Positions 65-15,581 of a DNA stretch of 38,486 nucleotides are shown here, one piece after another; the first letter of the stretch is position 1, and every line of letters starts with the position of its first letter. The stretch lies in contig JAVBXM010000257.1 of the NCBI GenBank assembly GCA_030824585.1, forward strand, positions 1-38,486, written 5' to 3'. Below the pieces are notes generated by a model that did not search any database, was not told the origin of the DNA, and saw only the letters and a program-made list of their open reading frames with translations. The stretch comes from Phaeospirillum sp. Its GTDB lineage: Bacteria; Pseudomonadota; Alphaproteobacteria; Rhodospirillales; Magnetospirillaceae. Position numbers and translations under genes: made by a program.

Positions 65-801
65 CACGGCAACTCCACCGCCAGCGCCTCGGCGGTGGCC
101 GGATCGGCCAGCAGGCGGTTGACCATGCAATGAACGAAGCCGTCGTCGCGCTCGGCGAACGGCTCGGGGATGCGATGCAGGGCCGCCGCCCGTCCCGGCG
201 ATGGCGACAGCACCAGGATGCGGTCGGCCAGACGCACCGCCTCGGCCAGATCGTGGGTGACCAGCAAGGCGGTGAGGTTCCGCCCGGCGATCAGGCGGCG
301 CACCAGGGACTGCATCTGGCGGCGCAGCCCGACATCCAGCGCGCTGAACGGCTCGTCCAGCAACAGCAGGTCGGGCTCCACCGCCAGGGCGCGGGCCAGG
401 GCGACCCGCTGGCGCATGCCGCCCGACAGTTCGTGGGGAAACTTGGCTCCGTCCTCGGGAGCGAGCCCGACGACCTCCATCAGCCGCCCGGCCCGCTCCA
501 GCCGCTGGCGGCGCCCCACCCCCATGGCCTTCAGGCCGAAGGCGATATTGTCGCGGGCGTCGCGCCACGGCAGCAGGCAGGGGTCCTGGAACACGAAGAC
601 CGGGTGGCGGAAGCCATGGTCGATGGTGCCCTCGGCCGGGGCGAGCAATCCTCCGACCATGGACAGCACGGTGGTCTTGCCGCAGCCCGACGGACCGAGC
701 AGGCAGCCGATCTCCCCCCGGGGCAGCGAGAAGGACAGGTCCTCGATCACGCCCTGGGGGCCGAACGCATGGCTCAGCCCCCTGATCTCCAGGCCGGGCA
801 T
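64..801 (-). CDS. ABC transporter ATP-binding protein, NitT/TauT (SsuB/TauB) type
   Basis: A 245-residue cytoplasmic ATPase that should power the permease encoded just upstream. It has Walker A GPSGCGKTT, the signature LSGGMRQRVALARAL, Walker B LLLLDEPFSALD and the switch histidine in LLVTHD. Length and motifs fit the nitrate/sulfonate/taurine/thiamine-precursor importer family. The substrate cannot be read from the ATPase. The start at 801 is chosen because its ATG overlaps the permease TGA (TGATG); the open frame continues further upstream but there it only antisense-shadows the permease. The gene is translationally coupled on both sides. Confidence 0.93.
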   Translation of the reverse strand: MPGLEIRGLSHAFGPQGVIEDLSFSLPRGEIGCLLGPSGCGKTTVLSMVGGLLAPAEGTIDHGFRHPVFVFQDPCLLPWRDARDNIAFGLKAMGVGRRQRLERAGRLMEVVGLAPEDGAKFPHELSGGMRQRVALARALAVEPDLLLLDEPFSALDVGLRRQMQSLVRRLIAGRNLTALLVTHDLAEAVRLADRILVLSPSPGRAAALHRIPEPFAERDDGFVHCMVNRLLADPATAEALAVELP

Positions 802-1625: not shown

Positions 1626-1626
1626 A

Positions 1627-2631
1627 TCAGGCTCCCCAATAGAATCCGGGCTCGGGCAGCTTGCCGCCCAGGATGTCGGGGGATATCTCCAGCAGGTCGG
1701 TGAAGAACGCCTCCATCCCGGCGCGGGCCTCGGCCGCCGAGACCACGCCCAGGCGGAAATGGGGCAGAGAACGCTCGATGATCGGCGCGGGAAGGTCCAG
1801 ATAATCGGTTCCCAGACGCCCGGCGCTGGCCGGATTGTTGCCCACCCAGCGGGCTCCGGCGACACAGGCCTCGTGGATGGCCTTGACCAGGTCCGGCCGC
1901 TGCTGCGCCAAATCCTCCGAAATACCCAGCCCGGCCTGGGGAATGCCTCCCTTGCGGTTGTTGACCTTGCCGTAAACCTCGGTGAGGTCGAGGACACGAT
2001 GGACGGCGATGCCCGCCTGCATGCCCCGCATCTGGGTCGCCGTCGCCATGGGCTCTTGCAGGATGGCGATGTCGGCCTTGCCGGCCAGGAACAACTGGGC
2101 GGCCTCGGTGGGGGTGGCCACGTAGTTCAGGGCCACGTCCTTGTCGGGATTCATGCCCAGCTTCCGCAGAATCTGGCGGAACACCAGGTCGGGGGCGTCG
2201 TTGCGGAAGGATTGCAAGATGGTGCGGCCCGCCAGGTCCTCGATCCGGGTGATGGCCGGATCGCGGCTCATGACGTAGAGCAGCCCCCAGGTCATGATGT
2301 TGAGCATGCGCACCGGGGCGCCGCGGTTCTTCAGGTTGGCGCAGGAATAGCTGGGAATGCCGAACACCTTCATCTCGCCCGACACCACCCCGGCCCGCAC
2401 CTGATCGGGGGTGCGCCACACCTTGAGGCGGGCCTTGCCCACGTGGCCGGAAAGCGCCCCCGATTCCACCATGTGGGCCAGCACCACCGACGGAGTGGCG
2501 GGCATGCCGGCGATGGTCAGGCTGTCGAGAACCGGGGCGGCCCGGCCGACGGCGGGAAACAGGCCGGCGGCGCCCAGGCCACCCAGGCCGCCCAGGCCGC
2601 CCAGCAGGGCACGGCGTGAAAACTTGTGCAT
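1627..2631 (-). CDS. ABC transporter substrate-binding protein (NMT1/SsuA-like, Tat signal)
   Basis: A 334-residue periplasmic binding protein. The N-terminus has a twin-arginine signal (FSRRALLGG) followed by a Gly/Leu-rich stretch and a probable cleavage after VGRA, so export folded by Tat is expected. The body has the NMT1/SsuA pattern: a strand-turn near IAGMPATPSVV, then DLAGRTILQSF and the hinge-region segment GKADIAILQEP. Such proteins bind small organic ligands (sulfonates, thiamine precursors, nitrate or riboflavin relatives); the ligand is not predictable here. The ATG at 2631 has AAGGA upstream. The gene follows the TonB-receptor stop by 18 bases. Tat export of a soluble SBP can indicate a cofactor-like ligand, but this is only inference. 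Confidence 0.85.
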   Translation of the reverse strand: MHKFSRRALLGGLGGLGGLGAAGLFPAVGRAAPVLDSLTIAGMPATPSVVLAHMVESGALSGHVGKARLKVWRTPDQVRAGVVSGEMKVFGIPSYSCANLKNRGAPVRMLNIMTWGLLYVMSRDPAITRIEDLAGRTILQSFRNDAPDLVFRQILRKLGMNPDKDVALNYVATPTEAAQLFLAGKADIAILQEPMATATQMRGMQAGIAVHRVLDLTEVYGKVNNRKGGIPQAGLGISEDLAQQRPDLVKAIHEACVAGARWVGNNPASAGRLGTDYLDLPAPIIERSLPHFRLGVVSAAEARAGMEAFFTDLLEISPDILGGKLPEPGFYWGA

Positions 2632-2649
2632 GGGAAAATCCTTTTCGGC

Positions 2650-4662
2650 TCAGAAGGTCGCGACGGCGCGAACGTAGAAGGTGCGGCCCGGCCCGTTGAC
2701 GGAGGACGGATTGGCGTCGTCGGTGGCGTTGGCGGGGAGATGCTCGGCGTAGGTCTTGTCCAGCACGTTGTCGATCCCCAGCCGGACGCCGACGGTGTCG
2801 AGGAACTGCACGCCGCCGTAAAGGTCGAGCAGGGCGAAGCCGCCGCGGCTCGCCACGTCGTAGCCGCTGCCGGTCTTGGGATCGGAATCGGTGCGGCCCT
2901 GGGAGGCGACGGCCCGGAGCTTGGCGCCGGCGTTCCACGACCCGATGTCGGCCAGGGTGTCCTGATAGTCCACCAGCCAGTTGCCCTCCAGGGGAGAGAT
3001 GCCGTACAGCGCCCGTCCGTCCGAGGTGTTCTGCCCCCAGCGATAGGACAGCACCAGCCGGGTCGACCAGTTCCGGGTCAGGTTGATCCCCATCTCGGCA
3101 TCGGTGCCGGCCAGCCGGGCATCGACATTGCGCCAGATGAAGGCGTTGTCGTTGAGCAGCACGCCCGACTGGCCGTGGGCGCGGTCGCGGCTGATGAAGT
3201 CCTTGACCTCGTCCACATAGCCCGACACCGACACCCGCCAGGACCGGCTGGCCGCCCAGTCGTCGCCGCCCGGGCGCTTGCGGCCGTAATCGATCCAGTC
3301 CTCGCCCTTCAGCGCGGCCCCGGCCTCGGCGCGGTAATGGGTCTCGGGGGTCAGGTTGGGATTGCCGATCTGGCGGGCCGAGGTGCCGGCCGCCGTGGCG
3401 TTATTGGCCGACGGCAGGGCGAAATAGCGCTCGATAGTGTCGGCGGCGCGCATGATGCGCCCCAGCGAGCCGGTCAGCGACAGGGCGTCGCCCAGCAGCT
3501 TCTGTTCCCCGTCCAGCTTGGCGCTGAGCAGGTGGTCGTCGCGCGACACCGACGAGTTGCCGTAATACATGGAGTAGAGCGAACGCGACGTGCTGGAAAA
3601 GCCGCTGACCGTGGTCCTGGTATCGGCCTTGGTGGCGTCGGCGACCACGTAGTCGTAGCGCAGCCCGAGATTGACGCTGGTCTGGACGGCGGGCTTCCAG
3701 GCCAAATCCACATTGGCCGAGTTCTCCCACATCTCGACGCCGGGAAACTGGAAACCCGACAGGGTGGACAGCGAGGTGTTGGGGCCGCCATAACGGGCGG
3801 CATCGTGCCAGATGCTCTTGGTCGACAGGGTCAGCCGCCCGAGAAGATTGTCGGCCAGACCGGTCTCGCCCGCGATGGAGCCGCCGATCTCCTGGCGGTT
3901 CGGCTTGGCCTCGTTGCGGCTGGCGACGGGAGTTTCCGGCCGGTGCTCGAAATTGTTGGCGACGCGCTGCAGTTCCGAGAAGCGGAACTCCGCCTTCAGC
4001 TTGTCGATCACCCCCACGGGCCCCGCCGTCTCCACCGAGGCGACGCCCAGGGTGCGCTCGGTCCGCACCGGATCGGCGCCGTAGCCCTCGGACAGGGCGA
4101 CGCCGCTCTGGGTGGTGGTCACCGCCAGGGGCAGCTTGTGGTCGTCGATCAGGTCGTGGACCACCATCAGCCGCAGGGCCGAATCGGCATTGGGACGATA
4201 GGCCATGGCAAGCTGCTCGGTATGGCGGTCATAGCCGGTCCGCACCTTGTCGCCGTTGCCGTCCTCGTACTGGCCGGCCTTCTCCACCGTGCCGGTCACC
4301 TGGACCATGCCGAGGGAATGGGCGAGCGTTCCCTGGGCGAAGTGCTCCATGGCGTTGCCGCCGTTGCCGTAGCCGGTGCCCAGCTTGATCGGGGCGGCCG
4401 CCCCCATCACCGAGGCCAGCACTCCCGGCCCGGGATGGACCTTGTCGCGGCGGTACGCCATCTCGGCCGGCGCCCATCCCAGGTCCCACATGGGCAGGAT
4501 GGGAAACGGGCCCGGCATCGCGTGCTGGGCCAGAACCGGCACCACCGGATTGGCGGGAAGCGCCGGCCCGGCCGCCCCGGTCGCTCCGGCCTCCTGGGCC
4601 CAGGCGGGAGACGAAAGAGCGGTGGCGACGGAAAGGAGGGTGGCGAAACGGGAGAGGGACAT
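2650..4662 (-). CDS. TonB-dependent receptor-like outer-membrane protein with reduced plug
   Basis: A 670-residue protein with a Sec signal (MSLSRFATLLSVATALSSPAWA) and a long beta-barrel ending in the outer-membrane C-terminal pattern RTFYVRAVATF. Receptor hallmarks include the late NLTPETHYRAEAGA and RLGIDNVLDKTYAEHLP motifs. The segment MVQVTGTVEKAGQYEDGNG, followed by YDRHTEQLAMAYRPNADS, recalls the OprC/NosA branch. Only about 90-100 residues separate the signal peptide from what looks like the barrel, and I find no TonB box or normal plug motifs, whereas a plug is usually about 130-150 residues. The start at 4662 was chosen over upstream ATGs because GAGG lies 8 bases before it and a signal peptide follows. 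First gene of the uptake operon. Confidence 0.8.
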   Translation of the reverse strand: MSLSRFATLLSVATALSSPAWAQEAGATGAAGPALPANPVVPVLAQHAMPGPFPILPMWDLGWAPAEMAYRRDKVHPGPGVLASVMGAAAPIKLGTGYGNGGNAMEHFAQGTLAHSLGMVQVTGTVEKAGQYEDGNGDKVRTGYDRHTEQLAMAYRPNADSALRLMVVHDLIDDHKLPLAVTTTQSGVALSEGYGADPVRTERTLGVASVETAGPVGVIDKLKAEFRFSELQRVANNFEHRPETPVASRNEAKPNRQEIGGSIAGETGLADNLLGRLTLSTKSIWHDAARYGGPNTSLSTLSGFQFPGVEMWENSANVDLAWKPAVQTSVNLGLRYDYVVADATKADTRTTVSGFSSTSRSLYSMYYGNSSVSRDDHLLSAKLDGEQKLLGDALSLTGSLGRIMRAADTIERYFALPSANNATAAGTSARQIGNPNLTPETHYRAEAGAALKGEDWIDYGRKRPGGDDWAASRSWRVSVSGYVDEVKDFISRDRAHGQSGVLLNDNAFIWRNVDARLAGTDAEMGINLTRNWSTRLVLSYRWGQNTSDGRALYGISPLEGNWLVDYQDTLADIGSWNAGAKLRAVASQGRTDSDPKTGSGYDVASRGGFALLDLYGGVQFLDTVGVRLGIDNVLDKTYAEHLPANATDDANPSSVNGPGRTFYVRAVATF

Positions 4663-4685
4663 CGGGCACGCCTCGATATTGCGGT

Positions 4686-4730
4686 TGCGACTCATTTGCA
4701 TCACCCCGTGGTAGATGCGCTTGAGTCGCA
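4686..4730. promoter_or_regulatory. Interrupted palindrome, Fur-box-like
   Basis: Two 16-base arms (4686-4701 and 4715-4730) match as inverted repeats at 13 of 16 positions; the outer 9 bases, TGCGACTCA and TGAGTCGCA, are perfect. The left arm also fits a Fur-like dyad TGC-N9-GCA with a TCATT core. It lies between the FNR-type site and the receptor start codon, so it could be an operator for an iron or metal regulator or a hairpin in the 5' leader. Confidence 0.35.
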
Positions 4731-4736
4731 TTCGCA

Positions 4737-4750
4737 TTGACGATGGTCAA
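4737..4750. promoter_or_regulatory. FNR/DNR-type binding site TTGAC-N4-GTCAA
   Basis: The sequence TTGACGATGGTCAA is a perfect 5-4-5 palindrome of the FNR/ANR/DNR/NnrR class (consensus TTGAT-N4-ATCAA). Its centre is about 81 bases upstream of the minus-strand receptor ATG at 4662, which suits activation from near -41.5 with a leader of about 40 bases. It is also upstream of the plus-strand gene at 4931. Oxygen- or nitric-oxide-responsive control of the uptake operon is the likely meaning, consistent with a possible NnrS gene at its end. Confidence 0.6.
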
Positions 4751-4930: not shown

Positions 4931-5317
4931 ATGGGGCGGCGCTCGGTCGGCGCCTGGCTCGGACTGGTTCTGCTGCTGGCGGAAATCCTGGTCGGCGGAG
5001 CCCTGCCGCTGGTTCCCGGCAAGTCCGTCGCCCAGGCGCTTGGCGACGATCACGTCTGGGTCTGCACCACCGGCGGCATGGTGGAACTGGGAGCGGACGG
5101 CGTCCCGCTCGATTCCGGGCAGGCCGGCCACCAGCGCCTCTGCGCCTTCTGCCTGCCGGTGTTCGGCGGCGGGTTCGGCCATGCGCCGGAACTTGCCCCC
5201 CTGCCGGCCCGTCTGGCGGCCTCCCTTGCCTCGCCGCCTCCTCCCGCCACCGTTCCCGCCGCCGTTCCGGCCACCCTGGCCGGGCGATCCTCGCCCCGCG
5301 CGCCGCCTTTCGCCTGA
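4931..5317 (+). CDS. DUF2946-like membrane/periplasmic protein
   Basis: A 128-residue protein with a basic N-terminus, one hydrophobic segment (WLGLVLLLAEILVGGALPL) and an extracytoplasmic part containing HVWVCTTGGM and, after about 30 residues, QRLCAFCLPV. The spaced Cys/His pattern (VCTxxGM ... CxxC) resembles DUF2946 proteins, small membrane-anchored proteins often near copper or TonB genes; no biochemical role is known to me. The tail is Pro/Ala rich. The ATG at 4931 follows GAAGGG with short spacing; in-frame ATGs at 4823 and 4847 would add a non-hydrophobic extension and have no good ribosome site. It lies 120 bases upstream of the sigma-factor gene and may be the first gene of the peptide locus. 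Confidence 0.62.
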   Translation: MGRRSVGAWLGLVLLLAEILVGGALPLVPGKSVAQALGDDHVWVCTTGGMVELGADGVPLDSGQAGHQRLCAFCLPVFGGGFGHAPELAPLPARLAASLASPPPPATVPAAVPATLAGRSSPRAPPFA

Positions 5318-5340
5318 CATCCGAAACCTGATTCCTCCGC

Positions 5341-5372
5341 CCCCGGCCCAGCCGGGGAGGGAAGGCCTTTTT
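5341..5372 (+). terminator. Weak hairpin plus T-run after the DUF2946-like gene
   Basis: CCCCGGC (5341-5347) and GCCGGGG (5351-5357) form a 7-bp stem with a 3-base loop, followed 10 bases later by TTTTT (5368-5372). The distance to the T-run is longer than in a classical intrinsic terminator, so it may only slow polymerase. If active, it would separate the DUF2946-like gene from the sigma-factor gene. Confidence 0.3.
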
Positions 5373-5437
5373 CGAATGCCGGAAAGGACTTGCAGCAATG
5401 CGACACAGCACCGGGATGAGTCCGGTCGGGGGCGAGC

Positions 5438-6037
5438 ATGGATGCCTCCGATCCTGACTGGTCATCCACCACACCATCCGAGGGCAGCGCTGCGGAATGC
5501 GCCCTGCCCTCCGCCTGCCAGGGCGGGTTCGGCGAGCAATTGGGACGCCTCTACACCGAGAACATCGCCCGCCTGCATGCCTTTCTCACCCGCCGGCTGG
5601 GCAATTCGGGGGATGCCGAGGACGTCGCCCACGAGGCTTTCGCGCGGATGCTGAAGCGCTATGGCGCGGGCGGTATCGATACCCCCGTGGCCATGCTGTA
5701 CCGCATCGCCGTCAATATCGTGCGCGACGGGGCGCGGCTGGAGCGGTTCCGCATCCGCCAGTGCCAGGGACTGACCGAGCCGGTCTGCGCCGCCCCGCCC
5801 GAAGGCGACCCGGAATCCGCCGCCTCGGCCCGCCAAAGGCTGAGGGCCCTCAAGGACGGCATCGACCATCTGCCGCCCCGTTGTCGCGAGGTCTTCCTGC
5901 TGTACAAGATCGGCGGCAAGAGTCATTCCGAGATCGCCCAACACCTGGGAATCTCGCGAAACATGGTGGAAAAGCATGTGATCCGCGCCTACACGCAACT
6001 GCGCGCGGTGCTTTCGTGCGCCGACGGCGACGGTTGA
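5438..6037 (+). CDS. ECF RNA polymerase sigma factor, FecI type
   Basis: A 199-residue extracytoplasmic-function sigma factor. Region 2 spans about residues 30-75 (LYTENIARLHAFLTRRLGNSGDAEDVAHEAFARM in two halves), with the DAEDVAHEAF helix that opens the -10 element. Region 4 lies near residues 147-187, with LPPRCREVFLLYKIGGKSH and SEIAQHLGISRNMVEKHV as the helix-turn-helix. This is the FecI/FpvI class, normally held inactive by a FecR-type protein and released when a STN-containing TonB receptor binds its ligand; both partners are the next two genes. An N-terminal Ser/Ala-rich extension of about 28 residues could be shorter if a later start is used. It stops 17 bases before the anti-sigma gene. 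Confidence 0.92.
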   Translation: MDASDPDWSSTTPSEGSAAECALPSACQGGFGEQLGRLYTENIARLHAFLTRRLGNSGDAEDVAHEAFARMLKRYGAGGIDTPVAMLYRIAVNIVRDGARLERFRIRQCQGLTEPVCAAPPEGDPESAASARQRLRALKDGIDHLPPRCREVFLLYKIGGKSHSEIAQHLGISRNMVEKHVIRAYTQLRAVLSCADGDG

Positions 6038-6054
6038 CAAGGCGGACATGCCCT

Positions 6055-7062
6055 ATGCTTCATAGCGCCATGACCGACACGCCGAGGGCACACGACGATC
6101 AAGAGCATGCCGCCGACGAGGTGGTGGCCCGCTATGTCGCGCTCCAGGCGGGGGAGACCTCGGCCAGCCAGCGCCTGGACTTCATGCGCTGGACCGCCGA
6201 GAGCCAGCCCCGCCGCGAGGCGGTCGAGGATTTGCGGCGCATCGACACCGACCTGGATGCCCTGCGCGGCCACTACGCCGCCGAGGTCGCCACCCTGGCT
6301 CGCCCAGCGGCAAGGCCGGCCCTGCGCCGGGCGGCCGGGCTGGCCGCCGCCTGTGTCGCCGGCCTGGGGCTGGTATTCCTGGCCACCGCCAGCCGCACGG
6401 TCACCGCGTCGGGGGGGCTCCCGGCCCTGGTCAGCCTGGGAGACGGCTCGCGCGTCCACCTCGATGCCGGGGCAAGCGTCGACATCCCCTATGCGCCATG
6501 GTCGCGGCACGTCGCCCTGCGCGGCGGCGATGCCGTCTTCGACATCATCCACGACGAACGCCGCCCCTTCTCGGTGGCGGTCGGACGCATGGAGATCCGG
6601 GACCTGGGGACCCGCTTCCTGGTGCAGACCGGGCAAGGCGGCATGACCGTGTCGGTCTATGAGGGCGCCGTGGAAATCGACTCCGGCACCGGGACGCCGT
6701 CCCGCCTCCTGTCGCCGGCCACGGCCATGACGGTATCGGCGGACGGAGAGATGAGGAGCGTGCCCCTGGCCGGCGAGGCGGAAGCCACCGCCTGGCGCCA
6801 GGGCCGCCTGATCTTCGACGACACGCCCCTGGCCGACGTGGCCGAGCGGCTGTCGCGCTATGGCGGCGAGAAGGTGGTGATCGGCTCGCCGGCCATCGCC
6901 GGATTGCGGATCAGCGGATCGTTCGAGCTGGCCAACCGGGCCGGCTTGCTGCGGGCCATCGAGGCGACCTTGCCCGTCGCCGCCCGGCGGACCGGCGAGC
7001 AGACCGTGCTGATGCCGGCCCCCGCCCGCGAGGTGGTCCCTCCCCGCCTGATGACACGCTGA
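6055..7062 (+). CDS. FecR-type anti-sigma factor / sigma regulator
   Basis: A 335-residue single-pass inner-membrane protein. The cytoplasmic N-terminus (about residues 20-60, with EVVARYVALQAGE and FMRWTAESQPRREA) is the sigma-binding DUF4880-type domain. A membrane helix sits near residues 88-112. The periplasmic FecR domain follows (SLGDGSRVHLDAGASVDIPY, LRGGDAVFDI, DLGTRFLV, VSVYEGAVEI), then a C-terminal STN-like segment (IFDDTPLADVAERLSRYGG) that should contact the receptor. The ATG at 6055 is chosen because AAGGCGG lies 9 bases upstream; the frame is open further upstream inside the sigma gene, and an ATG at 6070 lacks a ribosome site. It relays receptor occupancy to the ECF sigma factor. 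Confidence 0.92.
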   Translation: MLHSAMTDTPRAHDDQEHAADEVVARYVALQAGETSASQRLDFMRWTAESQPRREAVEDLRRIDTDLDALRGHYAAEVATLARPAARPALRRAAGLAAACVAGLGLVFLATASRTVTASGGLPALVSLGDGSRVHLDAGASVDIPYAPWSRHVALRGGDAVFDIIHDERRPFSVAVGRMEIRDLGTRFLVQTGQGGMTVSVYEGAVEIDSGTGTPSRLLSPATAMTVSADGEMRSVPLAGEAEATAWRQGRLIFDDTPLADVAERLSRYGGEKVVIGSPAIAGLRISGSFELANRAGLLRAIEATLPVAARRTGEQTVLMPAPAREVVPPRLMTR

Positions 7063-7171
7063 AAAAAACTTCGCCCCCGGCATCAGGGGGCCCCCTCCTC
7101 CTTCGTCAATCCCTCTGAACCGTCCGCGAAGGGACGGCGCAGCAGAGTCGATTGAGAGAAAGAGGGGAATC

Positions 7172-9550
7172 ATGAGCCGAGGGAATGGCGGCGGCGGGCG
7201 GCGGGCCCGGCGCATGGTGATGTTTGGCGCCCTGGTCGGATGGGGCATTCACTCCGCCGCGCTGGCCGACGAGGCCCGCATCAAGCTGGACATTCCCGCC
7301 CAGCCCCTGTCCTCGGCCCTCGACGCCCTTCGGGCGCAGTCCAACATCCAAGTGCTTTATTCCGCCGATCTGGTCGGCGGCCGCGCGGCTCCGGCGGTCC
7401 AGGGGGAATTCTCCCCCCGCGAGGCCCTGGTCCGCCTGCTCAAGGGCACCGGTCTCGAGGTCCACAGCGGCGACAGGAGCGGCTTCGCCGTGGTGCGCGC
7501 CGACACGGCCGACGGCGACAAGCCCATCCCGGAAGTGGTGGTCACCTCGGAGCGCGAACGCGGCTATGCCGCGTCCCTCGACGGCCTTGCCCTGGCGGCC
7601 CGCCGGCAGGGCAAGGCCGATACCGCCCGCCTGCTGGACGACATGCTGGGCGTCACCGTGGCGGGGGCGGGCGGCGTCTCGGCCCTGCCCACCGTCCAGG
7701 GCCTCGGCGACCAGCGGGTCCTGACCCTGGTGGACGGCATGCAATTGTCGGCGGCCTGCGCCAACCACATGAACCCGCCGCTGTCCTACATCGCGCCCAG
7801 CCAGGTGAGCAAGGTCGAGGTGATGACCGGCATTTCCCCGGTCAGCTTCGGCGGCGACAGCATCGGCGGCACCATCTTGGTGCAATCGGCCAAGCCGGTC
7901 TTCGCCCGCCCCGACGAGGGCACGGCGGTCCACGGGCAGTTCTCCACCTTCTACCGCTCCAACAACGCGGCGGTGGGTACCGCCGCCAATGCCTCCATAG
8001 CCAGCGAATCCGTCAGCCTGGGCTATTCCGGCGCCTGGAGCCAAGCCAGCAACTACTCGGCCGGCGGCGGCGGCGCGGTGCCGCTTTCCCGCTACAACAC
8101 CCAGAACCACAAGGTCAGCCTGGCGGGGCGCAACGAATCCAACCTGATCGTCGTGGAAGGCGGCGCCCAGTGGATGCCCTACCAGGGCTTCGCCAACCAG
8201 CCCATGGACATGACCCAGAACCGAAGCTGGTTCGGCAATATCCGCCATGAGGGCGAATACGGCTGGGGCCGCCTGGACAACAAGGCCTACTACCACGCCG
8301 TCAGCCACAAGATGAACAATCTGGCCGAGCGCGGCGGCAACATGCCCATGAACACCGAGGGCAAGGATTTCGGCTATGGGCTGAAGGCCGAGGTTCCGCT
8401 GTCCGACACCCATACCGTACGGCTGGGCAACGAATTCCACGGCCAGACCCTGGACGACATCTGGCCGTTCGCCGGCAGCGGCATCCAGGACCTGACGGAG
8501 ATCAGCAACGGGCAGCGCAACCGCATCGGCAACTACGTCGAGATGGAATCCAGGTGGACCAGCCAGTGGTCCACCGTCATCGGCCTGCGGTCCGACATCG
8601 TGCTGATGGATACCGACACGGTGCAGGGCTACTTCGCCATCAGCAACTATGCCCACGCCCGGCTGTTCAACAGCATCGACCGCGCCCGCGAGGACTATAA
8701 TTTCGACGGCAGCGCCCTGGTGCGCTTCCAGCCCGACGGCCAGCAGGACTACCAGTTCGGCGTGGCCCGCAAGACCCGCTCGCCCGATCTCTACGAGCGC
8801 TACAACTGGCAGATGACCAACATGGTCGGCTGGTACGGCGACGGCAACAACTACCAGGGCAACCCCTGGCTGCGCCCGGAAACCGCCTATACCGTGGGCG
8901 CCACCGCCAAGTGGCATGACGAGGCCGGCAAGGACTGGGAATTCGCCGCGGCCCCCTACTACACCTACGTCCACAACTACATCGACGTGAACGGCACCGG
9001 CACCAGCACGCTGGGCACCGCCCTGGGACAGCAACCCGGCGGCCGCCAGATATGGAAGCTGCAGTTCGTCAACACCAACGCCGACATCTTCGGCATCGAT
9101 TTCGGCGGGCGCAAGCTGCTGGCCGAGATCCCCGGATTGGGCGCCCTTACCGGCATCGGCAAGCTGGGCTTCCAGCGCGGGCACAACCTCTCCACCGGCG
9201 CCAGCCTGTACCGGATGATGCCGCTGAACGCCAAGCTTGGCCTGGAGCACCGGCTGGAGGGCTGGACCAACGGCATCGAGGTGGAACTGGTCGACGACAA
9301 GACCCACGTGGACCCCATCCGCCACGATCCGCCCACTCCGGGCTACGCGGTGTTCAATCTGAAATCCGGCTACGTGTTCGGCAATTTCAAGATCGACGGC
9401 GGCATCACCAACCTGTTCGACCACCGCTATTACCAGCCGCTGGGCGGCGTCAACGCCATGAGGCTGGGGGAGAACAGCAACCAGGGACCGCGCGTCCCCC
9501 TGCTGGCGGAAGGCCGTTCCTTCAACATGGGGCTCACCGTCAGCTTCTGA
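7172..9550 (+). CDS. TonB-dependent transducer with STN domain and OprC-like copper motifs
   Basis: A 792-residue outer-membrane receptor. A signal peptide ends near ALADEA. The STN signalling domain follows (IPAQPLSSALDALRAQ ... VLYSADLV ... GTGLEV, to about residue 112), then a TonB box near PEVVVTSE, a plug (VQGLGDQRVLTLVDGMQLS to SFGGDSIGGTI) and a barrel ending GRSFNMGLTVSF. In the plug, C196-ANH-M200 before NPPLSYI, and in the barrel H379-K-M381, reproduce the CxxxM / HxM pattern that binds copper in the OprC receptor. The STN domain implies signalling through the adjacent FecR/FecI pair. GAGGGG precedes the ATG at good spacing. The precursor-peptide gene begins 90 bases after the stop. 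Copper, or a copper-peptide complex, is the inferred ligand. Confidence 0.9.
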   Translation: MSRGNGGGGRRARRMVMFGALVGWGIHSAALADEARIKLDIPAQPLSSALDALRAQSNIQVLYSADLVGGRAAPAVQGEFSPREALVRLLKGTGLEVHSGDRSGFAVVRADTADGDKPIPEVVVTSERERGYAASLDGLALAARRQGKADTARLLDDMLGVTVAGAGGVSALPTVQGLGDQRVLTLVDGMQLSAACANHMNPPLSYIAPSQVSKVEVMTGISPVSFGGDSIGGTILVQSAKPVFARPDEGTAVHGQFSTFYRSNNAAVGTAANASIASESVSLGYSGAWSQASNYSAGGGGAVPLSRYNTQNHKVSLAGRNESNLIVVEGGAQWMPYQGFANQPMDMTQNRSWFGNIRHEGEYGWGRLDNKAYYHAVSHKMNNLAERGGNMPMNTEGKDFGYGLKAEVPLSDTHTVRLGNEFHGQTLDDIWPFAGSGIQDLTEISNGQRNRIGNYVEMESRWTSQWSTVIGLRSDIVLMDTDTVQGYFAISNYAHARLFNSIDRAREDYNFDGSALVRFQPDGQQDYQFGVARKTRSPDLYERYNWQMTNMVGWYGDGNNYQGNPWLRPETAYTVGATAKWHDEAGKDWEFAAAPYYTYVHNYIDVNGTGTSTLGTALGQQPGGRQIWKLQFVNTNADIFGIDFGGRKLLAEIPGLGALTGIGKLGFQRGHNLSTGASLYRMMPLNAKLGLEHRLEGWTNGIEVELVDDKTHVDPIRHDPPTPGYAVFNLKSGYVFGNFKIDGGITNLFDHRYYQPLGGVNAMRLGENSNQGPRVPLLAEGRSFNMGLTVSF

Positions 9551-9624
9551 CGGCGGCCCCGACGCGACCGGCCCCGGGCAACTTGGCAGGCGTCCGGAGC
9601 CGGGGTTCCTCGAGCAAATGACCG

Positions 9625-9635
9625 AAGGGAGGTGA
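9625..9635 (+). promoter_or_regulatory. Very strong Shine-Dalgarno for the peptide gene
   Basis: AAGGGAGGTGA pairs with nearly the whole anti-Shine-Dalgarno tail of 16S rRNA and sits 5 bases before the ATG at 9641. It is the best ribosome site I noticed in the window and is the main reason to accept the 35-codon frame as a real, highly translated gene. Confidence 0.8.
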
Positions 9636-9640
9636 TTTTG

Positions 9641-9748
9641 ATGGTCAAGGAGATTCGCATCGTCGAGTTCGGCGCCGAGCTGGGCAAGTACATGATGGCG
9701 GGTGGTTGCTGCACCGGCCCCATGTGCCCGACCGACTGCTCGCACTAA
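9641..9748 (+). CDS. Cys-rich RiPP precursor peptide (35 aa), substrate of the adjacent radical SAM enzyme
   Basis: A 35-residue peptide between the TonB receptor and a radical SAM/SPASM enzyme. Residues 1-20 look like a leader, charged and amphipathic, starting MVKEIRIVEFGAELGK. Residues 21-35 form a likely core, GGCCTGPMCPTDCSH, with Cys at 23, 24, 29 and 33, Met28 and a C-terminal His35: a soft-metal ligand set. The GG before the Cys pair is a plausible leader cleavage point. It ends with TAA and is followed by a hairpin before the maturase gene. I recall short Cys-containing peptides paired with a radical SAM enzyme under family names CbpA/CbpB, but could not check whether this belongs there. 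It is not like methanobactin MbnA, and no MbnB/MbnC is present. Confidence 0.82.
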   Translation: MVKEIRIVEFGAELGKYMMAGGCCTGPMCPTDCSH

Positions 9749-9756
9749 GGGCAGGC

Positions 9757-9792
9757 GGGGGCGGGATGCTGGCAGGCACCCCGCCCCCTTTT
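9757..9792 (+). terminator. GC-rich hairpin with T4 between peptide and maturase genes (attenuator)
   Basis: GGGGGCGGG (9757-9765) pairs perfectly with CCCGCCCCC (9780-9788) across a 14-base loop and is followed directly by TTTT (9789-9792). It begins 9 bases after the peptide stop codon and ends 22 bases before the maturase ATG. Partial termination here would yield much more peptide than enzyme message, as is common in RiPP operons. Confidence 0.7.
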
Positions 9793-9814
9793 CATCTCAA
9801 CAGGGGCAGACAGC

Positions 9815-11221
9815 ATGACTTCGGACTTCATCAAGGACTTCCATCTCTTGCCGACGGCGCTGGGGCCGGTGATCTTCCACGGCACCTCCTACCGCTTCTT
9901 CCAGGTGGACAAGTCCGTCGCCCGCACCGTCGCCGCCCTGGAGGCGGGCGAGACGGTCGCCGCCGCCGAGGCCGAGGCCACGCGCAAGACCCTGCTCGAC
10001 CAGGTGGGTACCGAGGCGTTCCAGTTGAAGACCCACATGCTGGGCGACCGCGAGGACCTGTCGGTCTTCTATTTCTTCGTCAGCCAGGACTGCAACCTGG
10101 CCTGCGCCTATTGCTACGGCGACGGCGGCGATTACGGCAAGATCCGCATGCTGATGGACGAGACCGTGGCCGACGCGTTCCTCGACCGCTTCATCACCGG
10201 GCCGGGGCGCCGCTACATGGTCAACCTGTTCGGCGGCGAGCCGCTGATGAACCTGCCGGTGCTGAAATCCTTCGTCGCCAAGGGCAAGGACAAGGCGGCC
10301 CGGCTGGGCGGCACCGTGGACTTCAACATCACCACCAACGGCACCCTGTGGAACGACGAGATTCGCGACTTCCTCAGGGACGAGGTCAACAACGTCACCG
10401 TCAGCCTGGACGGCCCCAAGGAGATCCACGACGCCCAGCGCCCGGCGCGGGGCTCGTTCTCGCCCTACGAGCGCACGGTGCGCACCCTCGAGGAATTGCG
10501 CAGCATCAAGCCGGACAAGACCGTCACCCGCACCATCGTCACCAGCGCCAGTTGCGGCCGGATCGCCGAAATCTACGCCCACAATTCCGCCCTGTCGCCG
10601 GGCGGCGCCGGCCTGACCACCGTGGATGTGGACCCGGATGATCCCCTGGCCCTGTCCGACGGCGACCGCCTGTCCATGCTGGAGCAGATGGTCAAGACCA
10701 ACCGGGCCAGCCTGCTGTCCTTCGCCGAGGACGACGATCCCCGCTTCTTCGAATACACCTTCGACCTTTTCGAACTGATGTTCTTCCGCAAGTACCGCCT
10801 CAATCCCTGCAATGCCGGGCGGGCGGTGGCGGCGGTGGCCGCCGACGGCGACCTCTATCCCTGCCACCGCTTCGTGGGCAAGGACGACTTCCGCTTCGGC
10901 AACGTGCTGGCCGAAACCCCGCTGACCGGACGCTTCGACGCCATCCGCGCCGATTTCCGCGACGCCGGGGTCGAGGGCAGCCCCAAATGCTCCAAATGCT
11001 GGGTCCGCTATATGTGCGGCGGCTGCTGCTATGTGATCTCCCACAACCGCAACGGCGACATCGCCGACCCGCCCGACCATTATTGCCGCCTGAAGACCAC
11101 GGTCTATCACGAGTTGCTGACCACCTTCGTCGAGATCATGGCCGACGAGCCCCGGGCCGCCAAGCTGGTGGCCAACGTCACCCAATTGCTGGAGAAACGG
11201 GGAAAGCCGCCGGCATGCTGA
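9815..11221 (+). CDS. Radical SAM/SPASM peptide maturase
   Basis: A 468-residue enzyme expected to modify the 35-residue peptide. The N-terminal 90 residues precede the radical SAM motif C93-NLA-C97-AY-C100, which binds the SAM-cleaving 4Fe-4S cluster. Further barrel motifs include NLFGGEPLMN, FNITTNGTL and VSLDGPKEIHD. The C-terminal part has the SPASM-type cysteines: NPCNAGRAVAAV, GDLYPCHRF, then CSKCWVRYMCGGCCY and HYCRLK, which should hold two auxiliary Fe-S clusters. This layout belongs to maturases that make thioether or C-C crosslinks or epimerise residues in RiPPs; the reaction is not predictable from sequence alone. AGGGG lies 10 bases before the ATG. The 3' end overlaps the exporter ATPase start by 7 bases. 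Confidence 0.93.
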   Translation: MTSDFIKDFHLLPTALGPVIFHGTSYRFFQVDKSVARTVAALEAGETVAAAEAEATRKTLLDQVGTEAFQLKTHMLGDREDLSVFYFFVSQDCNLACAYCYGDGGDYGKIRMLMDETVADAFLDRFITGPGRRYMVNLFGGEPLMNLPVLKSFVAKGKDKAARLGGTVDFNITTNGTLWNDEIRDFLRDEVNNVTVSLDGPKEIHDAQRPARGSFSPYERTVRTLEELRSIKPDKTVTRTIVTSASCGRIAEIYAHNSALSPGGAGLTTVDVDPDDPLALSDGDRLSMLEQMVKTNRASLLSFAEDDDPRFFEYTFDLFELMFFRKYRLNPCNAGRAVAAVAADGDLYPCHRFVGKDDFRFGNVLAETPLTGRFDAIRADFRDAGVEGSPKCSKCWVRYMCGGCCYVISHNRNGDIADPPDHYCRLKTTVYHELLTTFVEIMADEPRAAKLVANVTQLLEKRGKPPAC

Positions 11222-11910
11222 AACCGGCGGTACAGATGGACGGCGTCGGCAAGACCTATGCCGGCGAAGTGCGGGCGCTGGACCATGTGTCCTTCCAGGT
11301 GGCCGAAGGCGAGACCTTCGGCATCCTGGGGGCCAACGGCGCCGGCAAGACGACGCTGATCCGCATCGCCTCGACCCTGATGCGCCCCACCCAGGGCCGC
11401 GTCGTCCTGTTCGGCGAGACGGACGGCACCGCCATCCGCCGCCGCATGGGGGTGGTGTCGCAGGACTGCACCTTGGACCCCCACCTGACGGTACGGCGCA
11501 ACCTGTCGTTCCATGCCCTGTTCTTCGGCCTGCCCGGCCCCCGGCGAAAGCGGCGGATCGACGAGGCGCTGGCCTGGCTGGGGCTCGACCATTGCGCCGA
11601 TGCCGCCATTCACACCCTGTCGGGCGGTACCAAGCGCAAGGTGATGATCGCCCGCGCCCTGCTGGCCGAACCGGCTCTGCTGATTCTCGACGAGCCGACC
11701 ACCGGCCTCGACCCCGAGGCCCGCGCCGTGGTGTGGAGCCGCCTGCGCGCCGGCGCGGCGGCGGGAACCACCATCGTGCTGTCGACCCATCACCGCGACG
11801 AGGCCGAAGCGCTGTGCCACCGCGTCGGGGTGATCGAACAGGGCCGCATGGCCGACGGGGATTCCGACGCCCTGGACGCCTGGTTCGCCAAGGCCGCCGC
11901 CCATGCCTGA
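11215..11910 (+). CDS. ABC-2 exporter ATP-binding protein
   Basis: A 231-residue ATPase with Walker A GANGAGKTT, signature LSGGTKRKVMIARALL, Walker B LLILDEPTTGLDPEA and H-loop STHHRDEAE. The TTGLDPEAR context and the VVSQDCTLDPHLTVRRNL Q-loop region are typical of drug, polysaccharide and Nod-factor type exporters (CcmA/NodI/DrrA class). The ATG at 11215 overlaps the maturase TGA (11219-11221), and its own stop overlaps the permease start by 8 bases. This tight coupling puts export in the same functional unit as peptide modification, so the modified peptide is the expected cargo. An immunity or efflux role for another compound is less likely. Confidence 0.92.
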   Translation: MLKPAVQMDGVGKTYAGEVRALDHVSFQVAEGETFGILGANGAGKTTLIRIASTLMRPTQGRVVLFGETDGTAIRRRMGVVSQDCTLDPHLTVRRNLSFHALFFGLPGPRRKRRIDEALAWLGLDHCADAAIHTLSGGTKRKVMIARALLAEPALLILDEPTTGLDPEARAVVWSRLRAGAAAGTTIVLSTHHRDEAEALCHRVGVIEQGRMADGDSDALDAWFAKAAAHA

Positions 11911-12667
11911 GCGGATCTGGATGGCCTATGCCCTGCGCTGTCTGACCGAGGCGGTGGTCGACTGGCGCGGCGCCGTCCAGCGGCTGCTGTTCCAGCCGCT
12001 GGTCTACCTGCTGGTGTTCGGCGGCGTGCTGGGCGGCACCAAGATCGGCGGCGGCGGCGACTACGCCCAGGTGGTGGCGCCGGGCATCGTCGCCATCGTG
12101 GTGATGAACTCGGCCATGGCGGTGGTGGGCGGCATGTTCGCCACCGGCTATTACTTCCACGCCATGGAGGCGTGGCTGCTGGGACCGATCTCGCTCAGGG
12201 GCTTTCTCGGCGCCCTGGTGGCCGGCGCCACCGTGATGGCCATGCTGGCCGGCGCCGCCGCCCTGATCCTGATCCGGCTGGTGCTGGGGCTCGCCCCCGC
12301 CCAGCCGGTCCTGGCCCTTGGCGCCATCGTCTTCGGCGCCGTGGCCTTCAGCCTGCTGTTCGTCATCGCCTTCACCCTGCCGCGAACTCCCGCCAGGGCC
12401 CAGGGCGTGCTGGCCTTCGTGATGATGCCGATGATGTTCTTCGGCTGCACCTTCTACACCTGGGACAGCCTAGCCTGGCCGTGGAACGGGCTGGCGCTGC
12501 TGATGCCCACCACCTATCTCAGCGAGGCGCTGCGCGCCACCTACCGGGCGGCGGAAGGCCTGGCGGCGGGGCCCCTGCTGCCGGCCGGCGGCCTGCTGAT
12601 CCTGGCGGGGCTGGCGGGACTGGCCGATTGCCTGTTCCGGCGGCGCTTCCGGGATTTTCCCTGGTGA
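11903..12667 (+). CDS. ABC-2 type exporter permease
   Basis: A 254-residue inner-membrane protein with about six helices, in the NodJ/DrrB ABC-2 permease pattern. An N-terminal amphipathic part is followed by LLFQPLVYLLVFGGVLGG, the YAQVVAPGIVAIVVMNSAM region, and the late FFGCTFYTWDSLAWPWNGLA stretch near the ABC-2 signature. It partners the preceding ATPase to form an exporter. No peptidase C39 domain is present, so leader removal would need a separate protease. The stop lies only 3 bases from the stop of the convergent GGDEF-EAL gene, leaving no room for a terminator between them. Confidence 0.9.
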   Translation: MPERIWMAYALRCLTEAVVDWRGAVQRLLFQPLVYLLVFGGVLGGTKIGGGGDYAQVVAPGIVAIVVMNSAMAVVGGMFATGYYFHAMEAWLLGPISLRGFLGALVAGATVMAMLAGAAALILIRLVLGLAPAQPVLALGAIVFGAVAFSLLFVIAFTLPRTPARAQGVLAFVMMPMMFFGCTFYTWDSLAWPWNGLALLMPTTYLSEALRATYRAAEGLAAGPLLPAGGLLILAGLAGLADCLFRRRFRDFPW

Positions 12668-12670
12668 GGA

Positions 12671-15145
12671 TCATGATCTTTGGATGTCGCCCCCCATCCA
12701 GTCGATGAAGGCGTCGGCGGCCAGCGGGCGGCTGTAGAGGTAGCCCTGGCAGGAATCGCACCCCCGCCCGGTCAGGAAATCCAACTGCGCCGTAGTCTCC
12801 ACCCCTTCCGCCAGCACGGCCAGCCGCAGGTTCTTGGCCATGGCGATGATGGTGGCGGTGATCTCCATGGCGGCGGGATCGTGGGGGATGTCGCGGACGA
12901 AGCTCTGGTCGATCTTGAGCTTGTCCAGGGGGAAACGGCGCAGATTGGCCAGAGAGGAATAGCCGGTGCCGAAATCGTCGATGGCCAGTTGGATGCCCTG
13001 GTTCTTCAAGGCGGCCATCTGGCCTTCGGCCGCGTCGCCGCGCGCCATGATGGTGCTTTCCGTCAGTTCCAGTTCGAGGCAGGGCGGCGGCAGCCCGCTT
13101 TCTTGCAAGATGTCGCGTACCCTCTCCTTCAGATTGGCCAGGCGGAACTGTTGCGGCGACAGGTTGACCGCCACCTTGTCGATCCGCAATCCCTCGTCGA
13201 GCCAGCGCTTCATCCGGTTGCAGGCCTCGCGCAGCACCCAGTCCCCCAGGGCGATGATCAGCCCGGTTTCCTCGGCCAGCGGAATGAACTGGTAGGGGGG
13301 GATAAGCTCCTTTCCCGGCGGCTGCCAGCGCACCAGGGCCTCCACCCCCTCGACCCGCATGTCGGCCAGCGAGATCAGGGGCTGGTAATGCAGGACGAAC
13401 TCGCCCTGCTCCAATCCCCGCCTCAATCCGGCCTCCATCTCCAGGCGGCGGCGGGCTTCCTCGGTCAGCGAGCGGGTATAGAAGCGATAGGTATTGCGCC
13501 CCTCGCCCTTGGCCTGGCTCACGGCGGAGCCGGCATGCTGGATCAGTTGCTCGGCGCTGTCCCCGTCGTCGGGAAACAGGCTGATGCCCACGCTGGCGCC
13601 GATGCAGACCTCCTGGCCGTCCTTCAGGCGGCAGGGTACCGCCAGATGCTCGATCATGCTTCCGGCGACGGTGGCGGCATCATCGGCATAGGGAACATCC
13701 TCCAAGACCACGATGAACTCATCGCCGCCATGGCGGGCCAGGGTATCGGCCTGCCGCGCCCGGTCGCGCAGCCGGCTGACGGCGATCTGCAGCACCTCGT
13801 CGCCCGCCCCGTGCCCCAGGCTTTCGTTGACCACCCGGAAATGGTCCAGGTCGAGAAACAGAACGGCGCAGCGCTTCTCATCGCGGCGGGCCCGGTCCAG
13901 CACGTGTTCCAGCCGCAGGCGCAGCAAGGTGCGGTTGGGAAGATCGGTCAGGGGATCGTGGTGGGCCAGATGCTGGAGCATGGCCTCGGATTGCTTGAGC
14001 CGCGACAGGTCGGCGAACACCCCCACATAGTTCACCGCCTCGGCAGTCTCGGTCCCCACCAGGGCGATGCTCATCCAGGCGGGAAACACGTCACCGCCCC
14101 GGCGCCGGCAGGACACCTCCCCCTGCCACGCCCCATTGGCCCGAACCTCCCGCCAGATGGCCGGGTAAAGGGCGGGATCGTCGCGGCCCGATTGCAGCAT
14201 GGCCAGGGGGCGCGACACCATTTCGGCCTCGGAATACTCGGAAATCATCGAGAAGGCCGGATTGACGGCGAGAATGATGCCGTCGGGATCGGTGACGAAC
14301 ACCGCCTCCAAGGTGGTGGTGAAGACGGCGGCGGCCTGCCGCAGGCTCGCCTCGTTGCGCCGCAATTCCGTGACGTCCACATGGGTGCCGACCAGCCGCT
14401 CCGGCCGGCCCTGGGCATCGCGGGTCAGGAAGGCCGGCGCCCGGATGGACCGGTCGCTGCCGTCCCTGTGCCGCATGCGGAACTCAAGCTCGATGCGGTC
14501 CTCCCGGCCCTTCAGGAAATCGCCCATGCGCTTTTGGGTCGGCAGGCGGTCGTCGGGATGCAGCAGGTTGACCCAGGTGAACGGCGAGGCCTGCAATTCC
14601 ATTTCGCCATAGCCGAGCATGGCCTTCCAGCGGGGCGAGAAATAGACCTGGTTGGATTTCAGGTCCCAGTCCCACAGCCCGTCATTGGCGCCGCGCATGG
14701 CCAGCTGGAACCGCTCCTCGCTGACGCGCAGGCCCTCCTCGGCGCGGTGCAGGGCCTTGCGTTCCGCCACCTCGGCCAGGGCGCGCTGGATCGACGACAC
14801 CAGCCGGGCCAGATGGCCCTTCAGGACGAAGTCCCAGGCCCCCAGCTTGAGCATCTCCACCGCCTCTTCCTCGCCGATACTGCCCGAAATCAGGATGATC
14901 GGCAGGTCGGGACGGAGCTTGCGGATATGGGCGAGGTTTTCCTGGAAATCGAGGCCGGGGACATTGTAATCCGACAGGACAAGGTCCAGCGCCCCGCGCT
15001 CCAGGGCATCGGAAATCTCGGTGCGATTGGTCGCCCACACGCATCGGGCGGCGATGTCGTTGCGGCGCAGATGGCGTTCGATCATCAGGACGTCGGCCTT
15101 GACGTCCTCGATGATCAAGATGTTGATGGCCGTCTCCGTGGACAT
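12671..15145 (-). CDS. REC-PAS-PAS-GGDEF-EAL cyclic-di-GMP enzyme
   Basis: An 824-residue cytoplasmic protein. A receiver domain (about 8-125) has phospho-acceptor D59 in LVLSDYNVPG and the lysine in FVLKGH. Two PAS domains follow (about 145-265 and 270-385). The GGDEF domain has an intact active site at 473-477 (HGGDEF) and the inhibitory RxxD (RQAD, 464-467) five residues upstream, so it is a feedback-controlled diguanylate cyclase. The EAL domain starts near E602-A-L and keeps VNLSPQQF, LELTEST, DDFGTGYSS, KIDQSF, AEGVET and QGYLYSRPL, so phosphodiesterase activity is also likely. Third gene of an operon with a response regulator (1 base away) and a double kinase, which probably phosphorylates it or the regulator. 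Confidence 0.95.
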   Translation of the reverse strand: MSTETAINILIIEDVKADVLMIERHLRRNDIAARCVWATNRTEISDALERGALDLVLSDYNVPGLDFQENLAHIRKLRPDLPIILISGSIGEEEAVEMLKLGAWDFVLKGHLARLVSSIQRALAEVAERKALHRAEEGLRVSEERFQLAMRGANDGLWDWDLKSNQVYFSPRWKAMLGYGEMELQASPFTWVNLLHPDDRLPTQKRMGDFLKGREDRIELEFRMRHRDGSDRSIRAPAFLTRDAQGRPERLVGTHVDVTELRRNEASLRQAAAVFTTTLEAVFVTDPDGIILAVNPAFSMISEYSEAEMVSRPLAMLQSGRDDPALYPAIWREVRANGAWQGEVSCRRRGGDVFPAWMSIALVGTETAEAVNYVGVFADLSRLKQSEAMLQHLAHHDPLTDLPNRTLLRLRLEHVLDRARRDEKRCAVLFLDLDHFRVVNESLGHGAGDEVLQIAVSRLRDRARQADTLARHGGDEFIVVLEDVPYADDAATVAGSMIEHLAVPCRLKDGQEVCIGASVGISLFPDDGDSAEQLIQHAGSAVSQAKGEGRNTYRFYTRSLTEEARRRLEMEAGLRRGLEQGEFVLHYQPLISLADMRVEGVEALVRWQPPGKELIPPYQFIPLAEETGLIIALGDWVLREACNRMKRWLDEGLRIDKVAVNLSPQQFRLANLKERVRDILQESGLPPPCLELELTESTIMARGDAAEGQMAALKNQGIQLAIDDFGTGYSSLANLRRFPLDKLKIDQSFVRDIPHDPAAMEITATIIAMAKNLRLAVLAEGVETTAQLDFLTGRGCDSCQGYLYSRPLAADAFIDWMGGDIQRS

Positions 15146-15146
15146 G

Positions 15147-15581
15147 TCATTTCACCGGCGGTTCGTTGGTCAGCAGCCAATAGATGCCCAAACGGGCGGC
15201 CGTCTCGGCGAACTCCCGGAAATCCAGCGGCTTCCGGACGAAGCTGTTGGCTCCCTCCTGATAGCCGGTCAGACGGTCGTTCTCCTCGTCCGACGAGGTC
15301 AGCAGCACCACCGGCAGCCTGGAGGTACGCTGGTCGGCGCGGATGATCTTCAGCACATCCAGCCCGTTGACCCGGGGCAGGTTGATGTCAAGCAGGACCG
15401 CGGCGGGAAGGTCGGCGGAGGGGCGCCCGGCGAACTCCCCGTCGCGGAACAGATAGTCCAGGGCCTGCTGCCCGTCCCGGACCACGTCCACCGTATTGGC
15501 GAGGTTGACCTTGCGCAGAGCCCGCATGATCAGCATCTCGTCCTGGCGGTTGTCCTCAACCAGCAAGATCGTCTTGTGCAT
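15147..15581 (-). CDS. Single-domain response regulator, Rcp1-like
   Basis: A 144-residue receiver domain with no output domain. The acidic pocket is in LLVEDNRQDE, the phospho-acceptor D65 in AVLLDINLPRVNG, the Ser/Thr in VLLTSSDEEND and the lysine in FVRKPLDF. The RQDEMLIMRALRK start and the long loop before the DINLP motif resemble Rcp1-type regulators that pair with phytochrome-like kinases. The ATG at 15581 has GGAAGGGA upstream and lies 26 bases inside the end of the kinase gene. It most likely takes phosphate from the second kinase core of that protein and acts as a shuttle or feedback regulator toward the GGDEF-EAL protein downstream. Confidence 0.93.
   Translation of the reverse strand: MHKTILLVEDNRQDEMLIMRALRKVNLANTVDVVRDGQQALDYLFRDGEFAGRPSADLPAAVLLDINLPRVNGLDVLKIIRADQRTSRLPVVLLTSSDEENDRLTGYQEGANSFVRKPLDFREFAETAARLGIYWLLTNEPPVK

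Follow-up and report, generated by a model that had tools for sequence, protein, structure and literature searches.

Among described systems for peptide-mediated copper uptake, the closest to the locus considered here are the group I methanobactin loci of Methylosinus (MbnI, MbnR, MbnT, MbnA, MbnB, MbnC and MbnM), for which self-signalling copper uptake has been proposed and in which a small precursor peptide is encoded together with an N-terminally extended TonB receptor, a FecI/FecR-like pair and an exporter (PMC3621798). A second relevant layout is that of operons headed by CruR, where a DUF2946 protein with CXXC and RAPP motifs comes first and a copper TonB receptor of the OprC type (TIGR01778) lies downstream (PMC9426467). 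Here we analyse a 38,486-nucleotide contig of Phaeospirillum sp. (JAVBXM010000257.1; the whole stretch is called the window below), in which eight genes follow one another on the forward strand between 4931 and 12667. They encode a DUF2946 protein, an extracytoplasmic function (ECF) sigma factor, FecR, an STN-TonB receptor, a short peptide, a radical S-adenosylmethionine (SAM) enzyme with a SPASM domain, the ATPase of an ATP-binding cassette (ABC) transporter, and an ABC-2 permease. An earlier note, made from the sequence alone, had suggested a metallophore that is a ribosomally synthesized and post-translationally modified peptide (RiPP), and had described this gene set, its common strand and the overlap of the last three genes; all were found where it had placed them. 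The best-supported reading of the locus, and one we consider probable, is a radical SAM RiPP chalkophore with self-signalling uptake.

The likeness to group I methanobactin loci, and the exchange of MbnB and MbnC for a radical SAM enzyme, had already been pointed out and hold up on inspection. A TonB receptor with an STN domain is present together with FecI and FecR, and the sigma factor matches NF040705, the model for sigma factors with an MbnA domain, in its sigma part only (62.7 of 350 bits). In place of the methanobactin components, however, the window has a radical SAM/SPASM maturase, an ABC-2 exporter, an OprC-like receptor and a CruR leader. The maturase families MbnB, a multinuclear non-haem iron-dependent oxidative enzyme (MNIO), and MbnC do not appear among the Pfam and NCBIfam matches listed for the eight genes; the peptide has no match in either database, MbnA-type precursors included; and no multidrug and toxic compound extrusion (MATE) exporter lies in the locus, which has an ABC ATPase and ABC-2 permease instead. 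The defining maturases, precursor type and exporter were looked for and are not there, which places the locus outside the methanobactin family even though it would work like the group I systems. Compared with CruR-headed operons, FecI and FecR are inserted between leader and receptor, an STN domain is part of the receptor, and the operon continues into a RiPP cassette.

The first gene, left uninterpreted in the earlier note, encodes a 128-residue protein (4931-5317, forward strand, as are all genes of the operon) that matches DUF2946 (PF11162, 30 bits against a cut-off of 23.7) and carries CAFC at residues 71-74 and RAPP at 123-126, with 48 residues between the two motifs and two after RAPP. 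CruR has been described as a copper-sensing upstream open reading frame (uORF) whose CXXC senses copper and whose C-terminal RAPP stalls the ribosome; in the presence of copper it triggers Rho termination ahead of the next gene, a C>G bubble being the signature of the Rho site, and CruR genes are reported upstream of OprC-type receptors and MbnPH-like genes (PMC9426467). With its Pfam family, its CXXC, its C-terminal RAPP and its place at the head of an operon, the gene has the hallmarks of a CruR-type copper uORF as judged by motif and position, which strengthens the copper reading. The strongest C>G stretch of the window, a candidate Rho-utilisation stretch at 5170-5358, covers the 3' end of this uORF and the gap before FecI and holds the only 78-nucleotide segments on either strand with C minus G of at least 0.35, although Pro/Ala-rich coding contributes to it. 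A frame with the pattern CXXC-x(42-50)-R[AG]PP, the RAPP or RGPP lying near its C-terminus, was found at 10 of the 17 distinct loci of receptor relatives (15 of 26 fetched stretches). On an Ideonella plasmid (L063, 3173-8190) a receptor relative lies behind genes annotated DUF2946, MbnP and MbnM; the gene table of that record, which is incomplete, lists no precursor peptide.

Since the DUF2946 gene bears the CruR hallmarks, the operon is predicted to be shut off by copper. A related uORF, CutF, acts in the opposite sense, copper enhancing its downstream gene (PMC9973294), so that the sign of copper control by the window uORF is a prediction. The direction of control also bears on a different idea, namely that the peptide buffers or defends against excess copper in the manner of bufferins or captophorins. 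Copper RiPPs rich in Cys and produced by MNIO enzymes have indeed been described as induced by excess copper and by oxidative stress and as candidates for sequestration (PMC13097082, PMC12452194). Yet CruR, with the caution just raised by CutF, turns downstream genes off at high copper (PMC9426467), the STN/FecI/FecR set belongs to uptake, and an importer is the wrong partner for detoxification. We therefore regard copper defence as very unlikely.

The case for copper in the window is carried further by the receptor (7172-9550), a TonB receptor with an STN domain at residues 59-101 and a plug at 144-234. When it is aligned by phmmer with OprC in the Protein Data Bank (PDB), C196 and M200 of a CxxxM motif in the plug (codons at 7757-7771) and H379 and M381 of an HxM motif in the barrel (8306-8314) fall on the copper ligands of OprC. 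In OprC of Pseudomonas aeruginosa these are Cys143, Met147, His323 and Met325, a site described for ionic copper, which OprC imports (PMC8610252); the window receptor shares the ligands and differs in having an STN domain, FecI/FecR and a peptide beside it. Among receptor relatives the C and M of CxxxM are kept in 27 of 27 aligned rows and the H and M of HxM in 28 of 28, where one gene accounts for two rows, another row is truncated and lacks the CxxxM region, and one further row (L040), read in the wrong frame, had been left out. The copper motifs to which the earlier note had drawn attention are, in other words, real: aligned with the OprC ligands and invariant in relatives.

What sets the window receptor apart from these relatives is its signalling equipment. 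We scanned 28 receptors for an STN domain, comprising the window receptor, 26 relatives (duplicate and truncated rows left out) and the receptor of L155, a locus in genome G1046 from a second class of the window's phylum. Two had one, the receptors of the window and of L155 (the latter judged partly by its E-value), against none of the 26 relatives, and nothing like the FecI, FecR or maturase of the window was found at 1e-5 in 10 regions of 14-20 kb around ordinary receptor relatives. Because the relatives lack both the domain and these neighbours, a common copper receptor type is, on this comparison, equipped for signalling here. A Novosphingobium match (H63) that at first looked as if it extended over the STN region is, by its annotation, a receptor of 715 residues preceded by a separate small protein, and no cassette accompanies it; its row, read in the wrong frame, did not enter the motif count. 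The remaining members of the proposed self-signalling set are likewise recognisable from their domains: the FecI-type ECF sigma factor (5438-6037; Sigma70_r2 and r4_2) is 44% identical to the FecI of L155, and the FecR-type regulator (6070-7062; PF04773, 57.9 bits) is 33% identical to its counterpart there. STN receptor, FecR and ECF sigma factor together make up a trans-envelope signalling set, present in the window and likewise in L155.

Behind the receptor lies the candidate precursor (9641-9748), a 35-residue peptide whose C-terminus is rich in Cys, Met and His after a Gly-Gly. It is preceded by a strong Shine-Dalgarno sequence, GGGAGGTGAT, read directly at 9627-9636, and its frame is the sole one of 252 short frames (25-60 residues) in the window with at least four Cys in the last 18 residues, a count that took the upstream start at 9632. 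Given this ribosome-binding site and the unique Cys-rich frame, the peptide is to all appearances more than chance. A search of plasmid records with the peptide returned no match. Peptides occupy the same position in L155 and in L070, a locus of Candidatus Schekmanbacteria, and all three have a plausible Shine-Dalgarno sequence ahead of them.

The gene that follows (9815-11221; PF04055 and PF13186) encodes a radical SAM/SPASM peptide maturase in which both the CX3CX2C triad and the cysteines of the SPASM domain are intact. Searched against RiPP family models, as the earlier note had proposed, the maturase turns out to be related to QhpD and NlpM; the peptide stays unmatched. The best NCBIfam match of the maturase, TIGR04064, reaches 233 of 518.7 bits, short of the ranthipeptide/SCIFF/NlpM equivalog cut-off, and among the best 25 of its 73 NCBIfam matches all except the general SPASM domain model lie under their cut-offs. 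In the AlphaFold model (pLDDT 86.7) the N-terminus runs strand-strand-strand-helix-helix, followed by a poorly predicted segment at 70-81, an order that we take to resemble leader-binding RiPP recognition element (RRE) domains. The best PDB matches of the model, 5why and 5wgg, are titled thioether-forming, extend over 448-456 alignment columns including gaps, and are of the SCIFF maturase CteB. From the strand and helix order and the near full-length structural match, the maturase is predicted to be of the RRE-containing radical SAM-SPASM type and to bind a leader, which bears out the enzyme assignment made earlier. Since a radical SAM enzyme is reportedly involved in thio(seleno)oxazole RiPP formation, chemistry other than thioethers may be conceivable.

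Relatives of this maturase are rare in what we searched. Neither an exact-pattern scan of genome contigs nor single-sequence searches of 60 relatives, 385 genomes of the class, 398 of the phylum and 55 of the family (overlapping samples, thresholds 1e-30 to 1e-43) returned a match or close relative, respectively, and plasmid and phage records held no relative above 35% identity among the matches listed. Most whole-genome matches were maturases of the QhpD type with a qhpC-like gene behind them and were set aside as another family; these labels come from the neighbouring gene and from plasmid annotation, and one match, L043, fits neither label. A profile scan of genome contigs, judged on the best 80 of at least 548 relatives on at least 593 stretches, yielded one full-length relative, that of L070 (38% identical), which alone among the 80 shares an extra Cys in CGGCC with the window maturase; identity to the 18 other rows of the alignment is 27-31%. 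A two-row profile searched at 1e-60 hit a single one of 199 genomes in the order, the genome itself, and 2 of 369 in another class of the phylum (G1046 and G1164), the same two recurring among 210 genomes of that class, an overlapping sample, with a three-row profile. The maturases of the window and L070 and the three of L155 (37% identical to that of the window) form one clade with support 100/99, inside which two long branches meet. They share fold and cluster motifs with the SCIFF, PapB, NlpM and QhpD maturases but stand in a clade separate from these.

Having defined this clade, we can ask what accompanies it. In L070 a TonB receptor (5498-7549), a 42-residue Cys-rich peptide (7743-7871), the maturase (7983-9425), a Vgb-like protein (9438-10892), an ABC ATPase (10876-11580), a permease (11577-12341) and a second TonB receptor (12335-14257) follow one another. 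In L155, FecI and FecR lie on one strand and, on the other, an STN receptor, a 46-residue Cys-rich peptide, three maturases, an ABC ATPase, a permease, a second TonB receptor and a Vgb-like protein. The ABC ATPase of the window (11215-11910; PF00005) is 50% identical to those of L070 and L155, and its permease (11903-12667; PF01061) 50% and 44%. G1164 contributes a 3,493-base contig on which maturase genes alone were found, so that its context is unreadable. Peptide, maturase, ABC pair and TonB receptor thus occur together in 3 of 3 readable loci, in three unrelated lineages, and FecI, FecR and STN in 2 of 3. The co-occurrence that the earlier note had put forward as a check therefore stands for peptide, maturase, ABC-2 pair and TonB receptor and in part for the STN receptor, whereas a receptor of the OprC copper type is found, of the three loci, in that of the window only. 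As separate observations, the three tandem maturases after one peptide in L155 (8438-12346, reverse strand) suggest a more heavily modified product, and three small Cys-rich, probably secreted proteins lie upstream of the first TonB receptor of L070 (4135-5359); two of these have Pro-Pro near the C-terminus, recalling CruR/CutF leaders, with no Pfam or NCBIfam match.

This pattern speaks to the simplest alternative, that peptide, maturase and ABC genes make an antimicrobial or belong to some other kind of RiPP operon and lie behind a copper receptor gene by chance. The gap of 90 bases between receptor and peptide would allow it, and SCIFF and NlpM-type maturases are not known to be tied to metals. 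The block nevertheless adjoins TonB receptors, of differing types, in three unrelated lineages, and we consider this the least probable of the explanations. A second alternative is that the peptide is a redox cofactor or signal like pyrroloquinoline quinone (PQQ), the copper receptor being an independent neighbour. The biosynthesis of PQQ involves a radical SAM enzyme, and its uptake the TonB receptor PqqU; the present maturase is related to QhpD and NlpM; and a Vgb-like protein occurs in both L070 and L155, the C-terminus of the L070 protein weakly matching a cytochrome-c-like model (21 bits against a cut-off of 93). However, the cassette is accompanied by TonB receptors and, at two of the three loci, by FecI, FecR and STN, in the layout of metallophore uptake, and no dehydrogenase partner is found among the operon genes, which leaves a cofactor improbable in our view. 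The Vgb-like propellers themselves (L070 9438-10892; L155 3493-4812) are 24% identical, carry CxxxCH or CxxCH in the C-terminal part, and possibly have a role in metal reduction or release.

Several observations weigh against a copper-binding, recaptured peptide. Copper, to begin with, does not unite the three cassettes as far as their sequences tell: none of the four receptors of L070 and L155 has a CxxxM or HxM motif, the STN receptor of L155 aligns with A, R, A and R at the four ligand positions, and neither tblastn (1e-2) nor a motif scan detected a DUF2946-like frame in L070 or L155. The copper case rests on the window locus. Within it, the receptor scores 123 bits against TIGR01778, below the cut-off of 472.45 and equal to TIGR01785 (123.1), and since OprC takes up ionic copper, a receptor of this type may, by analogy, need no peptide. 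The CXXC-RAPP spacing is 48, compared with 45, varying by one or two residues, for described CruR proteins (PMC9426467) and 42-50 in the matching relative loci, and the pattern was not found at 7 of the 17 distinct relative loci within the stretch scanned. Regarding the peptide, similarity scores were reached by 40 and 22 of 2000 shuffles for two of the pairs and by 979 of 2000 for window versus L155; the three peptides resemble one another more by their position and type than by their sequences, which align weakly. No leader peptidase or protease is among the eight operon genes, and thioether formation would consume thiols.

Some of these points would be accommodated if the product were a secreted and recaptured radical SAM RiPP metallophore whose metal is not generally copper (iron, zinc or nickel, for example), with the copper receptor and CruR recruited in this lineage only. 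The receptors of L070 and L155 are of general siderophore-, heme- or B12-like types without OprC motifs, and FecI/FecR systems serve mostly iron. Set against this, two independent copper features, the OprC ligands and the CruR motifs, flank FecI/FecR in the window, and a Cys/Met-rich core suits Cu(I). We hold this alternative to be unlikely. Because L070 and L155 have neither an OprC-type receptor nor DUF2946, copper may be specific to the window lineage. In sum, the metallophore reading of the earlier note gains from the OprC-type site, the STN/FecI/FecR set, the maturase fold and the cassette in three lineages, and loses from the absence of the copper features in L070 and L155.

If the locus does encode a self-signalling radical SAM chalkophore system, it might operate as follows. 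When copper is short, the ribosome would stall on the nascent DUF2946/CruR protein and the operon would be transcribed through. The N-terminal domain of the radical SAM enzyme would bind the 35-residue precursor and the maturase would cross-link its Cys-rich end, probably through thioethers; the ABC-2 pair would export the product, which would bind copper by whichever Cys, Met or His residues are left. Either the copper-loaded product or copper passed on by it would then enter through the STN receptor at its CxxxM-HxM site, and the STN domain would signal via FecR to free FecI and so raise transcription of receptor, peptide, maturase and exporter. Once copper is plentiful, it would bind the CXXC of CruR, stalling would end and Rho would terminate the transcript.

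Regarding the layout of the operon, the intergenic gaps are 120 bases before FecI, 109 before the receptor, 90 before the peptide and 66 before the maturase, and the genes for maturase, ABC ATPase and permease share 7 and 8 bases at their two junctions. Between peptide and maturase, an inverted repeat (9757-9788) forming a G+C-rich hairpin with TTTT behind it is a possible attenuator; its fold is unexceptional against shuffles (z-score -1.1) and a consensus terminator scan did not report it. A promoter scan covering sigma-70 sites gave a single one, on the wrong strand.

The operon appears at a boundary in the contig. Window 1-4665 is syntenic with genome G010 at 89% DNA identity, 7-4662 with G007 and 1-4547 with G815, and synteny with all three relatives stops abruptly (window 4665), just before the CruR gene. 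This fits acquisition of the operon, or of a larger block, at a later time; contamination is unlikely, because close relatives share a module of the contig. Left of the operon lies, at 2650-4737 on the reverse strand, an OprC/TIGR01778-like barrel with no detectable plug (profile positions 132-633 of 637; no Pfam Plug), matched at 1e-60 in 12 of 99 genomes, its own included and some partially, and adjoined by an NMT1-type binding protein in 7 of 9 relative loci. We considered this divergent barrel and the NMT1 transporter as the inner half of uptake and rejected the idea, as both occur without the cassette in the relatives examined. The right flank (12671-28081) has many signalling genes, among them GGDEF-EAL, several PAS histidine kinases and a response regulator bearing an HD domain, with no link to the operon seen.

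Copper-binding RiPPs from other enzyme classes are known, among them bufferins, captophorins and bulbicupramide (MNIO) and noursin (a lanthipeptide), and TonB goes unmentioned in the main text of the papers describing them (PMC13097082, PMC12538549, PMC10206099). The portions of the open-access literature covered by our search on chalkophores and radical SAM enzymes describe no radical SAM chalkophore system of this kind. We lean, by a small degree, towards a new class of RiPP metallophore systems with self-signalling: a radical SAM maturase clade making Cys/Met-rich peptides that are exported by ABC-2 transporters and recaptured by TonB receptors in at least two phyla, fused here to a copper receptor operon with CruR as off-switch and FecI as on-switch. 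Methanobactins were called the only reported RiPP chalkophores in a 2023 paper (PMC10206099), and a study of copper receptors reports that no high-affinity chalkophore could be identified for CrtA (PMC12914433). If our reading is true, the locus would represent an independent enzyme route to a RiPP chalkophore and widen the chemistry of copper acquisition, it would offer a candidate partner ligand for CruR-headed receptors, and it would provide a small operon in which the model of FecI/FecR self-signalling for copper can be tested directly.

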